NCBI RefSeq assembly: GCF_000261365.1
Contig: NZ_AJVC01000003.1
Span: forward strand, 930,001 to 994,000
Direction: 5' to 3'
From: Herbaspirillum sp. GW103
GTDB lineage: Bacteria; Pseudomonadota; Gammaproteobacteria; Burkholderiales; Burkholderiaceae_D
DNA length: 64,000 nucleotides
The notes below the pieces were generated by a model that was given only the letters and a program-made list of their open reading frames with translations, was not told the DNA's origin and did not search any database. Both the position numbers and the translations under genes were made by a program. The stretch's first letter is position 1; every line of letters starts with the position of its first letter. Of this stretch, positions 33,444-37,770 are shown one piece after another.

Positions 33444-33490
33444 CCTGATGTCTGGAAACTGCCGGCATTGATCGGCAGAAAACAACACCC

Positions 33491-33518
33491 AAGCCTGTGA
33501 TTTCACGGGCTTTTTCTT
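33491..33518 (+). terminator. Intrinsic terminator of guaA
   Basis: AAGCCTGTGA and TCACGGGCTT form a stem (one G-T pair) followed by TTTTCTTG. It lies 48 nt after the guaA stop. Confidence 0.8.
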
Positions 33519-33642
33519 GTTCGGTCTGGCATTCAATGAGATGGGCTGGCTGGCGCTGGCAGCGGCAAGCAAGACTTTTCACGGCAGGTCAGCATGCGCG
33601 TCAATGCAGACCGTGCGGGCGAATCTTACAAGGAGTACGGGG

Positions 33643-34530
33643 TTGGTAAACAAATACGAAGGCGAGGTCACCACCGTCTTTCATGGCGACTGCCTTGAGG
33701 CTCTGGACAGCATTCCAGATGCGTCGGTCGACCTCATTTTTGCTGATCCGCCCTACAACATCGGCAAGAAGTTCGGTGAGTTCAGGGACGCCTGGCCTTC
33801 TGACCTCGCCTATGCCGAGTGGTGCTATCGGTGGCTTGAAGCCTGCATCCGCAAGCTCAAGCCCAGCGGGAGCCTGTATGTCATGAGCAGCACACAGGCG
33901 ATGCCCTATCTTGACCTGTGGCTGCGTCAACGGATGAGCATACTGTCTCGCATCGTCTGGCATTACGACAGCTCAGGAGTGCAGGCGAAGAAATTTTTCG
34001 GCTCGCTCTATGAGCCGATTCTTTATTGCGTCAAGGATGCGAAATCCTACACGTTCAATGCGGCCGACATTGAAGTCGAAGCGCGGACAGGGGCAGTGCG
34101 AAAGCTCATGGACTATCGAAAAGAGGTCCCAAGCCCCTACAAGACGACGAAAGTGCCAGGCAATACATGGTACCTGCCGCGTGTGCGGTACCGTATGCCG
34201 GAATACGAAGAGCACCCGAGCCAGAAGCCGGAGGCGCTCCTTGAACGCATCATCAAGGCCAGCTCCAACCCTGGCGACATGGTTCTCGACCCGTTCGGCG
34301 GGACGTTTACAACATGCGCCGTCGCGCAACGTCTGGGCCGGCGCTCCGTTGGTATCGAGCTGCAGACCGATTACGTGAAGATCGGCCTGCGCAGGCTTGG
34401 CATAGCGACCCAGCTCAATGGAGAAACCTTGGCGGCTCCGGACAAGACCTACGTTCGCAAGAACGGCAACGGGGCAAGAGGCGGGGCAGGTGCGCAGGAG
34501 CAGGGAGGGCTATTCGATGCCAAGCTTTGA
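33643..34530 (+). CDS. Type II DNA adenine-N6 methyltransferase, beta class, YhdJ-like
   Basis: Predicted to methylate adenine, probably within ATGCAT, since the sequence closely follows my recall of E. coli YhdJ (WHYDSSGVQAKK, FGSLYEPILYCVKDAK, HPSQKPEALLERII). The catalytic DPPYN is at residues 35-39 and the SAM-binding DPFGGTFTT starts at residue 216; motif IV before motif I defines the beta class. The start is TTG 33643: AAGGAG at 33630-33635 is ideally spaced and the resulting 295 aa equals the YhdJ length. The frame is open upstream to 33517 but without family resemblance. It overlaps the nuclease gene by 14 nt. Confidence 0.88.
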   Translation: MVNKYEGEVTTVFHGDCLEALDSIPDASVDLIFADPPYNIGKKFGEFRDAWPSDLAYAEWCYRWLEACIRKLKPSGSLYVMSSTQAMPYLDLWLRQRMSILSRIVWHYDSSGVQAKKFFGSLYEPILYCVKDAKSYTFNAADIEVEARTGAVRKLMDYRKEVPSPYKTTKVPGNTWYLPRVRYRMPEYEEHPSQKPEALLERIIKASSNPGDMVLDPFGGTFTTCAVAQRLGRRSVGIELQTDYVKIGLRRLGIATQLNGETLAAPDKTYVRKNGNGARGGAGAQEQGGLFDAKL

Positions 34531-35716
34531 CAGTGCCCATCACGCTTTCACCCCGACCCTCCTCGCCGTGCTGAAGAAGCACTTTGGAGACTATGCCCTC
34601 GATGTTTTCATGAGCAGCCCAATTCTGGGCTATCTGAACAACAAGACCAGGGCAGCCAACCGCGGATCGAAGGCCAGAGGCGCGTTCGCCAATCACTATG
34701 CGCTCTACGTCGTCGTTGAAGATTACATCCAGAAGGGCTACGCCAAGGAAAATGCTGGCCTGTCCTACGCGAAGTACGAGGGAGCTCGCTTTTCTGATTT
34801 GTTCCGGCGCCAGCGCGAGTTGCCTTTCGGCGCCAAGCTGCAGAATCATGCACTCAATTCGCGCCTGAATGACGAGTTCAAGAAATTCTACCCTTCTGTC
34901 GGCAAGCCTCCTATCGTTCGGGACGTGGCGACCCAGCGCTACTGGATCCAGGAAGATTTGCTGCAAGTCGCTGTCCGCCATAAAGATGGCAAGGACCACA
35001 TCTACAACATTGCCCCAGCGGTGATCGAGATCATCAATGCCTACGTGGAGGCCAAGCGTGCCGCCTTTGAAGGGTTCCTGGAAACCTGCCGGCAAATCGC
35101 GGAGCTGGGCAAGCAGGCCCCGGAGAAGGCCATCGCATTCGTTGTGCAGCAGCTTGCGTCGAACGTTGATGCGCGCGTCTTTGAGATAGTCAGCTACGCA
35201 ATTCTCAAAGCCAAGTACGGGCAGGAAAGCATTTGGATTGGTGAGACAGAGGAGACGGTTGCCAAGACCGCTCTCGTGCTCTACAAGACGGGTCGCACCA
35301 ATGCCAATGACGGCGGAATTGACTTCGTCATGAAGCCCCTGGGACGATTCTTTCAGGTGACGGAAACCATCGATGTCAACAAATACTTCCTCGATATCGA
35401 CAAGGTGCAGCGCTTCCCGATCAGCTTCGTCGTGAAGTCGGTCGAGAGCGCCGAGCAGATTCGAACAGCTATTCGCCAGCAGGCCTTGGCCAAATACAGG
35501 ATCGAGGCGATCGTGGAGACCTACATGAAGGCCGTGGAAGAGATCATCAACGTCAAAGACCTGATGACAGCTTTTGATGCCGTGGTGGAGTCGGGCGGGC
35601 TTCAGAGTGTCATGGATGAAATCGTCGTGCAGAGCAAGGTCGAGTTCAATTACAACGACGATGACGAGGAACAAGACGACGAGGGCGGCGCTACGCTGTC
35701 TCTTCTGGAAGGCTAA
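34517..35716 (+). CDS. Probable type II restriction endonuclease, family not recognised
   Basis: A 399-aa soluble protein, assigned as the nuclease mainly because its start overlaps a cognate-type methyltransferase by 14 nt. The ribosome binding site GGGAGG (34503-34508) lies inside that gene and sets the start at 34517. The region ARVFEIVSYAILKAKYG ... NANDGGIDFVMK ... FFQVTE (Asp269, then Gln280 to Glu283) looks like the core of a PD-(D/E)XK fold, but the usual E/Q-x-K lysine is replaced by Gln-Val-Thr-Glu. The C-terminus is acidic (DDDEEQDDE). Base composition is lower in GC than the core genes around it, consistent with transfer. Confidence 0.7.
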   Translation: MPSFDSAHHAFTPTLLAVLKKHFGDYALDVFMSSPILGYLNNKTRAANRGSKARGAFANHYALYVVVEDYIQKGYAKENAGLSYAKYEGARFSDLFRRQRELPFGAKLQNHALNSRLNDEFKKFYPSVGKPPIVRDVATQRYWIQEDLLQVAVRHKDGKDHIYNIAPAVIEIINAYVEAKRAAFEGFLETCRQIAELGKQAPEKAIAFVVQQLASNVDARVFEIVSYAILKAKYGQESIWIGETEETVAKTALVLYKTGRTNANDGGIDFVMKPLGRFFQVTETIDVNKYFLDIDKVQRFPISFVVKSVESAEQIRTAIRQQALAKYRIEAIVETYMKAVEEIINVKDLMTAFDAVVESGGLQSVMDEIVVQSKVEFNYNDDDEEQDDEGGATLSLLEG

Positions 35717-35767
35717 TTTTTTACATGCGCATGCGCTGAGCCCCGCACAGCGCCCCACCCGTCAGCA

Positions 35768-35801
35768 ATAAAAAACCGGACGCAATCTTCATTGCGTCCG
35801 G
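35768..35801 (-). terminator. Intrinsic terminator of the MFS gene
   Basis: CCGGACGCAAT (35776-35786) pairs with ATTGCGTCCGG (35791-35801) around CTTC; on the minus strand the stem runs into TTTTTT. It terminates the leftward transporter transcript and may also back the plus-strand nuclease gene. Confidence 0.88.
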
Positions 35802-35871
35802 CCGTCTTGCCTATCCTGCGACGTCCCTCAGCCAGGTCGGCCAAAGGGACGCGCATCAGATCATCATTGCA

Positions 35872-37533
35872 TCATTGGTGAATGTTGTTGTGCACGGTTT
35901 CCTTCACGAACAGCAGGCCGATCACCACGGTGATGACCGAGATCACGATCGGATACCACAGACCATAGTAGATGTCGCCCTTGAAGGCCACCAGCGCGAA
36001 GGAGGTGGTGGGCAGCAGGCCGCCGAACCAGCCGTTGCCGATGTGGTAGGGCATGGACATGGAGGTGTAGCGGATGCGGGTCGGGAACATCTCCACCAGG
36101 CAAGCCGCGATCGGGCCGTACACCATGGTCACGTAGAGCACCAGGATGAACAGCAGCAGCAGGACCATGGGCTTGTTCATCTGCTCCGGATCGGCCTTGG
36201 CCGGGTAGCCGGCGGCCTTGATGTCATCGGCCAGTTCCTTGGACAGTTGCTTGTCCTTGGCAGCCGCTTCTTCCTTGGACAGGCCAGCCGCATCATATGA
36301 AGTGATGATGCGCTCGCCGATCTTGACGGTGGCCACCGAACCCGGTGCACCGGCCACGTTCTGGTAGTTCACCGAAGCCGCCGACAGCTTGGCCTTGACG
36401 ATGTCGCAGGAGGAGGTGAACTTCTTGGTGCCGGTCGGGTTGAACTGGAACTGGCAGCTGGCCGGGTCAGCGGTGACGATCACCGGCGACTTCTTCAGGG
36501 CCGATTCCAGTGCCGGGTTGGCGAAGTGGGTCAGGCCGTTGAAGATCGGGAAGTAGGTCACGGCGGCGATCAGGCAGCCACCCAGGATGATGGGCTTGCG
36601 GCCGATCTTGTCCGACAGCGAACCGAAGAACAGGAAGAAGGGCGTGGCCAGCAGCAGAGCCACGGCAATCAGGATATTGGCCGTCGGGCCATCCACCTTC
36701 AGGGTCTGGGTCAGGAAGAACAGGGCATAGAACTGGCCGGTGTACCACACCACGGCTTGACCGGCGGTCAGGCCGACCAGTGCCAGGATGACCAGCTTCA
36801 GGTTCTTCCACTGGCCGAAGGCTTCGGTCAGCGGTGCCTTGGAGGTCTTGCCCTCGGCCTTCATCTTCAGGAAGGCCGGCGACTCGTTCATGGACATGCG
36901 GATCCACACCGAGATGGCCAACAGCAGGATGGAAACCAGGAAGGGAATGCGCCAGCCCCAGTCGGCGAAGGCAGCTTCACCCACCGCGGTACGCACGCCC
37001 AGGATCACCAGCAGCGACAGGAACAGGCCCATCGTGGCGGTGGTCTGGATCCACGCGGTAAAGGCGCCGCGGCGGCCTTCCGGTGCGTGCTCGGCCACAT
37101 AGGTGGCCGCACCGCCATATTCACCGCCCAGCGCCAGGCCCTGCAGGATGCGCAGGGCGATCAGGATGATCGGGGCGGTGATGCCAATGGAGTTGTAGTT
37201 GGGCAGCACGCCGACGATGAAGGTCGAGGCACCCATGATCAGGATGGTCACCAGGAAGGTGTACTTGCGGCCGACCAGGTCACCCAGGCGACCGAACACC
37301 AGCGCGCCGAACGGACGCACGATGAAACCGGCGGCGAAGGCCAGCAGGGCGAAGATGAAGGCAGTGTTGGGATCGGTGCCGGCGAAGAATTGCTTGGCGA
37401 TGATGGCCGCCAGCGAACCGTACAGGTAAAAGTCATACCATTCGAAAACGGTGCCTAGCGACGAGGCGAAGATGACTTTCTTCTCCTCCGGGGTGATGCC
37501 GCGCGCAGTCGTGTTGACTGATGCTGTGGTCAT
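35872..37533 (-). CDS. MFS transporter of the metabolite:H+ symporter (MHS) family
   Basis: A 553-aa inner-membrane proton symporter with 12 predicted helices. Family signatures are seen: GTVFEWYDFYLYG near the N-terminus, GRLGDLVGRKY between helices 2 and 3, RILQGLALGGEYGGAATYV and GSLSDKIGRKPII. Relatives carry proline/betaine, shikimate or dicarboxylates; the substrate is not clear. An unusual hydrophilic insert of about 100 residues (~350-450, with two cysteines) lies between two C-terminal-half helices. The start is ATG 37533, with AAGGAG on the minus strand before it; upstream in-frame residues look non-conserved. Confidence 0.85.
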   Translation of the reverse strand: MTTASVNTTARGITPEEKKVIFASSLGTVFEWYDFYLYGSLAAIIAKQFFAGTDPNTAFIFALLAFAAGFIVRPFGALVFGRLGDLVGRKYTFLVTILIMGASTFIVGVLPNYNSIGITAPIILIALRILQGLALGGEYGGAATYVAEHAPEGRRGAFTAWIQTTATMGLFLSLLVILGVRTAVGEAAFADWGWRIPFLVSILLLAISVWIRMSMNESPAFLKMKAEGKTSKAPLTEAFGQWKNLKLVILALVGLTAGQAVVWYTGQFYALFFLTQTLKVDGPTANILIAVALLLATPFFLFFGSLSDKIGRKPIILGGCLIAAVTYFPIFNGLTHFANPALESALKKSPVIVTADPASCQFQFNPTGTKKFTSSCDIVKAKLSAASVNYQNVAGAPGSVATVKIGERIITSYDAAGLSKEEAAAKDKQLSKELADDIKAAGYPAKADPEQMNKPMVLLLLFILVLYVTMVYGPIAACLVEMFPTRIRYTSMSMPYHIGNGWFGGLLPTTSFALVAFKGDIYYGLWYPIVISVITVVIGLLFVKETVHNNIHQ

Positions 37534-37770
37534 GTTTGTCTCCTTGGTTTTAATGAGTGTGCTACTACATGGAATGCAGCCAGGTACTCGGGGCAACAAT
37601 GCAGCAGATGGCCGAATGGGGCGTTATGCAGGAACGCACCGGAGAACAGAGCATGCAGAGCATGAAGAATCGCCTCCCCTCGCTTCCCCGTCTAACACAA
37701 ACCGCGATATTGACTTCGCATTGCCTGCGTAAGGACCCACTTGTCCATGCGGCGAGTGTGCGACGCCAAA

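Follow-up and report, generated by a model that had tools for sequence, protein, structure and literature searches.

A YhdJ-type adenine methyltransferase and its adjoining nuclease in Herbaspirillum sp. GW103: a probable ATGCAT restriction-modification system in a genome nearly devoid of ATGCAT

Introduction

Restriction-modification systems directed against ATGCAT include those of the AvaIII/NsiI/EcoT22I type, and Csp68KIII of a Cyanothece strain, which we take to be another ATGCAT system. NsiI sites are methylated by M.AvaIII (cited part of PMC7489255). In Escherichia coli, YhdJ (M.EcoKII) acts on the second A of ATGCAT and, upon overexpression, blocks NsiI; the enzyme is classed as an orphan, and in its native setting it is silent (PMC4444293, in the section cited here). 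In Salmonella, deletion of yhdJ abolished all detected ATGCA*T methylation, and the cited portion of PMC9239280 describes little effect from loss of the enzyme. In this study, a locus encoding a YhdJ-type methyltransferase and an overlapping 399-residue nuclease was analyzed in Herbaspirillum sp. GW103, within a 64,000-nucleotide stretch of contig NZ_AJVC01000003.1 (positions 930,001 to 994,000, forward strand), referred to as the window. The pair resembles the AvaIII/NsiI/EcoT22I type systems in its predicted target, ATGCAT.

Restriction leaves traces in genome composition. In a large survey (cited part of PMC4687349), about half of the orthodox type II systems were reported to bring about avoidance of their sites, more so with longer residence, and other restriction types almost never to do so, GATC and CAGAG being named as exceptions.

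Results and Discussion

The methyltransferase gene (window positions 33643-34530, plus strand, 295 residues, TTG start) and the type II restriction endonuclease gene (34517-35716, plus strand, 399 residues, ATG start; assigned from profile matches, alignment and structure comparison) share 14 nt according to the gene coordinates (34517-34530, plus strand). With a probability of roughly 0.92, they are predicted to constitute a restriction-modification system of the orthodox type II kind that targets the palindrome ATGCAT. Separate, linked methyltransferase and endonuclease genes, as expected of such systems, were found at the level of sequence families, with activity predicted.

A genome-wide count, as proposed in a sequence-only reading of this DNA, disclosed very strong under-representation of ATGCAT. 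The 5.05-Mb genome contains 52 sites, as compared to 496-1650 (median 818) in the 33 congeners of a 34-genome genus sample (32 genomes at least 90% complete), and the control word TACGTA occurs 146 times as compared to 96-509 (median 153). Within this sample, the nuclease was detected in 1/34 genomes, namely that of the window, which is also the only one encoding a close methyltransferase; elsewhere the identity of the best match was 34-40%, except for one genome (63% complete) that gave no methyltransferase match. The only genus genome showing ATGCAT loss is thus the only one carrying the pair, which supports the earlier proposal of ATGCAT as target.

In an 864-kb sample of the genome (the window and a further 800 kb; G+C content 0.63), ATGCAT is absent, while 125 sites were expected from four relatives (200 kb each, G+C 0.576-0.65) and 100 from a maximum-order Markov model. 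Site avoidance, as described for type II systems, is therefore evident (0 vs about 100-125). Among 2050 hexamers with an expectation of at least 20, ATGCAT showed the lowest ratio (0.004 vs 0.255 for the next). CTCGAG was likewise under-represented in this sample (35 observed, 173 expected from the Markov model); its scarcity is probably a genus-wide feature not tied to the pair, since it is low in four sampled congeners as well.

Moreover, retention of individual sites was followed in two relatives with approximately 88% identity in aligned DNA. None of their ATGCAT sites was retained in the window genome (0/26 and 0/51), as compared to 16/29 retained between the two relatives themselves and 520/857 sites of six other palindromes, pooled, retained from relative G007 to the window genome. 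At 16 of the 26 first-relative sites the window genome differs by one base, 12 of these 16 reading GTGCAT or ATGCAC, with the direction of change unpolarised. Dispersed congener stretches offered little material for a retention control (8/23 kept, pairs not independent), and the better two-relative control was therefore used.

The near-total loss of ATGCAT points to the target of the pair and suggests that the nuclease has been active over a long time; the pattern fits a long-resident, active ATGCAT system. A target shared by both enzymes is accordingly proposed, that of the methyltransferase being predicted by family and that of the nuclease from site loss. Because the pair was found in one genus genome only, the loss probably arose after the split from the approximately 88%-identical relatives; that the relatives instead lost the system and regained their sites is possible but seems unlikely.

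Of the 52 remaining sites, 30 were inspected, a biased sample in that these were picked for clustering. Local G+C content was below 0.60 at 25 of the 30, with 0.63 in the genome sample. Eight proteins encoded near remaining sites were considered; Pfam matched six of them, in each case to a mobile or restriction type (TnsA-like, Mu transposase C-terminal, TniQ, serine recombinase, RepB, type ISP methylase/specificity protein), and left two unmatched. Several remaining sites lie within Tn7-like genes encoding TnsA-like, Mu-type transposase and TniQ proteins (L190 13608-18277; G000:C6 ~453608-458277, G000 being the window genome). A type ISP restriction-modification protein is encoded in a further low-GC stretch with ATGCAT sites (L187 17613-19961; G000:C4 ~457613-459961). 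These observations can be read as loss of ATGCAT from old DNA and its retention in newly arrived DNA.

The methyltransferase assignment to YhdJ, already made in the sequence-only reading, proved firm by sequence comparison. NCBIfam NF008572 (PRK11524) matched with 447.9 bits at a curated cut-off of 292, and identity to E. coli K-12 YhdJ amounts to 58% across 276 aligned positions. Both proteins belong to the same NCBIfam equivalog and carry DPPYN (residues 35-39 here) ahead of a DPF-G motif, with YDSSGVQAKK and DPFGGTFTT also present in the window protein; these motifs, both genes and the 14-nt overlap were seen where they had been placed before. In contrast to the silent orphan of E. coli, the methyltransferase is here paired with a nuclease gene. 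A second methyltransferase, 38% identical, is encoded elsewhere in the window genome (G000:C4:1085874-1086578, minus strand) and was matched in some form in 33/34 genus genomes, including this one; it may represent a conserved orphan, and CcrM type would be a guess.

The nuclease was matched by the PADLOC profile REase_II PDLC03455 nearly over its full length (E-value 3.3e-153, 508 bits, residues 8-389 of 399, profile positions 5-378 of 382). A profile scan of the alignment recovered the same family for all 38 sequences, the query included. This result bears out the predicted role as nuclease partner and does not support the previous description of the protein as unclassified; a new nuclease family was rejected on this basis. 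Among sequences scanned singly, a Crocosphaera member fitted PDLC03455 best (731 bits), and the profile therefore probably originated close to sequences of cyanobacteria. No recognition sequence is stated in the PADLOC entry as shown. Pfam yielded three sub-threshold matches to the nuclease and none above the cut-off, and NCBIfam yielded none. A search of the PDB with the single protein gave no match, and one with the nuclease profile gave a single weak match (6h9l, E-value 0.039, profile positions 150-215). Furthermore, no nuclease match was obtained in the phage collection, and among the best-ranked papers of the literature search, none was noticed that reports the sequence of a nuclease specific for ATGCAT.

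Regarding its architecture, the N-terminal part (residues ~12-180; 34550-35056, plus strand) showed a winged-helix-like match to ORC/Cdc6 domains and would recognise DNA. It is followed by a predicted PD-(D/E)XK-like nuclease core (residues ~219-344; 35171-35548, plus strand). The alignment revealed the family signature KTGRTNANDGGIDFVMKPLGRFFQVTE (residues 257-283; 35285-35365, plus strand) with invariant D269, Q280 and E283, and a further invariant residue, K307, downstream. Residues 260-266 of the structure model have values below 50 for the predicted local distance difference test (pLDDT).

Relatives of the nuclease were collected from one scan of GTDB species genomes, comprising 57 loci whose record titles name Proteobacteria, Cyanobacteria, Planctomycetota, archaea and other groups. 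In 53 of these, a YhdJ-like gene directly precedes the nuclease gene in the same orientation, L022 and L025 included, where it is in pieces. In two loci the methyltransferase match is on the opposite strand; in the remaining two, the nuclease match is partial, the methyltransferase match being absent at L057 and both weak (32%) and downstream at L055. Given the adjacency in 53/57 loci, the two genes are not neighbours by chance, and the claim of a compact type II pair, with both families matched, is upheld. At L025 (3140-4011), from a Dechloromonas genome, the methyltransferase match is in three pieces next to a long nuclease match, as would result from a sequencing error or from a nuclease that lacks its methylase.

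Plasmid records contributed 11 nuclease matches, three of them partial (at most 74% of the query). An annotated yhdJ adjoins the nuclease in four of the five plasmid neighbourhoods read, and the fifth record ends there. Two of these four pairs, encoding distant (38-40%) relatives on plasmids of E. coli (L059) and Acetobacter (L063), are convergent. In both, the nuclease gene is immediately preceded by a small helix-turn-helix gene, an arrangement suggestive of controller-type regulation; in the window this position is occupied by the methyltransferase gene.

Several observations weigh against an ATGCAT system as proposed. Methylation and cleavage by the pair are predictions from sequence. The canonical D..(D/E)xK triad is absent from the nuclease, D269 being followed by Q280-V-T282, and position 282 is T in 37 and K in one of the 38 sequences; the protein was therefore labelled PD-(D/E)XK-like only. 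The PD-(D/E)XK superfamily includes variant active sites, and the invariant E283 and K307 may substitute for canonical triad residues. The best structural match of the modelled nuclease, EcoT38I (PDB 7edb), shows 8% identity and a root-mean-square deviation of 7.7 across 268 residues, and its target, presumably GRGCYC, differs from the predicted ATGCAT. Moreover, the genus contrast depends on a single carrier genome, and counts in 50 of the 57 carrier genomes ranged from 8 to 1269. Some carriers are ATGCAT-rich (e.g., 1269 sites in 3.7 Mb in Acinetobacter, and 933, 790 and 513 sites in genomes of 9.7, 3.5 and 2.4 Mb, respectively); they may have acquired the system recently or possess enzymes with another target. 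In the genus containing Microcoleus, the nuclease was matched in 17/29 genomes (in two as broken pieces only, in one more with an internal stop), and no carrier contrast was observed, all 29 genomes being ATGCAT-low: 15 fuller carriers have 15-114 sites, the two with broken genes 52 and 54, and the 12 non-carriers 22-261.

In Methylomonadaceae, three full-length carriers have 31, 39 and 84 sites, compared to a median of 632 in 77 non-carriers, and a carrier of a nuclease fragment has 517. This contrast (Fisher p 0.002, relatedness ignored) holds only in part: the control word TACGTA is also low (19 and 15) in two of the three carriers, and 8/77 non-carriers have at most 100 ATGCAT sites. Genomes G125, G162, G169 and G172 of this family lack the nuclease and contain very few ATGCAT and TACGTA sites (e.g., 35 and 1, respectively, in a genome of 2.7 Mb), a hint of other systems or of a broad avoidance of palindromes. 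Since carrier counts vary, the Microcoleus contrast is negative and that of Methylomonadaceae is partial, ATGCAT as target appears well supported for the window host and plausible for the family as a whole.

Scarcity of ATGCAT in these 12 and eight non-carrier genomes, together with avoidance in the absence of a resident system as described in the cited part of PMC4687349, is what would be seen if the site loss were the scar of another, lost ATGCAT system, the present pair having come later or having another target. For the window host this is quite improbable, given that the sole genus genome of 34 with site loss is the sole pair carrier and that the methyltransferase belongs to a family of measured ATGCAT specificity. 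Still less probable is a regulatory orphan methyltransferase next to a 399-residue protein with a non-restriction role. The E. coli enzyme is indeed orphan and silent (PMC4444293), loss of the Salmonella enzyme has mild consequences (PMC9239280) and methylation itself possibly affects genomes (PMC4687349), each according to the cited parts, but the conserved adjacency, the restriction-enzyme family and best structural match of the nuclease, and the loss of nearly all target sites, which methylation alone presumably could not cause, argue against it. Finally, a degenerate target such as ATNNAT, which a Caulobacter system is reported to protect with NsiI sites included (cited part of PMC11945714), is hardly credible and ATNNAT itself ruled out, since the 18 one-letter neighbours of ATGCAT have own/relative ratios from 0.44 (TTGCAT/ATGCAA) to 1.32 and ATCGAT is retained from the two relatives at 36/75 and 78/142 sites, in contrast to ATGCAT.

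Returning to the locus, the pair is flanked by guaA on one side and a convergent transporter gene on the other. Terminator-like hairpins, from a consensus scan only, lie 3' of guaA (33491-33512, plus strand) and between the pair and the transporter gene (35774-35803, minus strand). The TTG start of the methyltransferase gene appears served by a good ribosome site, the Shine-Dalgarno-like AAGGAG read 7 nt upstream (33630-33635, plus strand). Within the methyltransferase gene, AGGGAGGG (34502-34509, plus strand), read 7 nt 5' of the nuclease ATG, probably serves the nuclease gene as its ribosome site, and translation of both genes may be coupled via their overlap. G+C content is 0.578 and 0.552 for the methyltransferase and nuclease genes, compared to 0.625 for guaA and 0.628 for the window, as expected of acquired genes. 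In addition, guaA was matched in 6/6 congeners examined, in which the DNA beyond it had no match to window positions 33444-37599; in the two congeners with open frames listed, guaA is followed by different genes.

Conclusions

For the proposed ATGCAT system, the following mode of action is envisaged. The YhdJ-type enzyme would methylate the second A of ATGCAT (ATGCA*T), and the 399-residue enzyme would cut unmethylated ATGCAT in incoming DNA, with ATGCA^T as a guess for the cut position. During long residence, leaky cleavage at ATGCAT sites of the host itself would have selected against this word, leaving the older chromosome with almost none and most inspected leftovers in low-GC stretches, several with mobile genes. 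It is conceivable, albeit rather unlikely, that the core genome is protected by the absence of ATGCAT, following long self-attack, rather than by methylation. If so, the methyltransferase would be important chiefly for recently acquired DNA, and the host might tolerate high expression of the nuclease, or even its expression alone, with little self-damage.

The system is of an ordinary kind and is supported by unusually decisive genomic evidence within its own genus. It also provides a very strong example of restriction-site avoidance, in which one species is set against 33 congeners and backed by a two-relative retention control. It offers a sequence-only indication of what a nuclease without curated specificity may cut, and, for one host, would connect ATGCAT with a widespread family of enzymes that has no sequence relative of solved structure. 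Of interest are the variant presumed active site of this family and the near-complete loss of its own predicted target. Furthermore, the same methyltransferase family that is a silent orphan in E. coli would here form one half of a restriction system.
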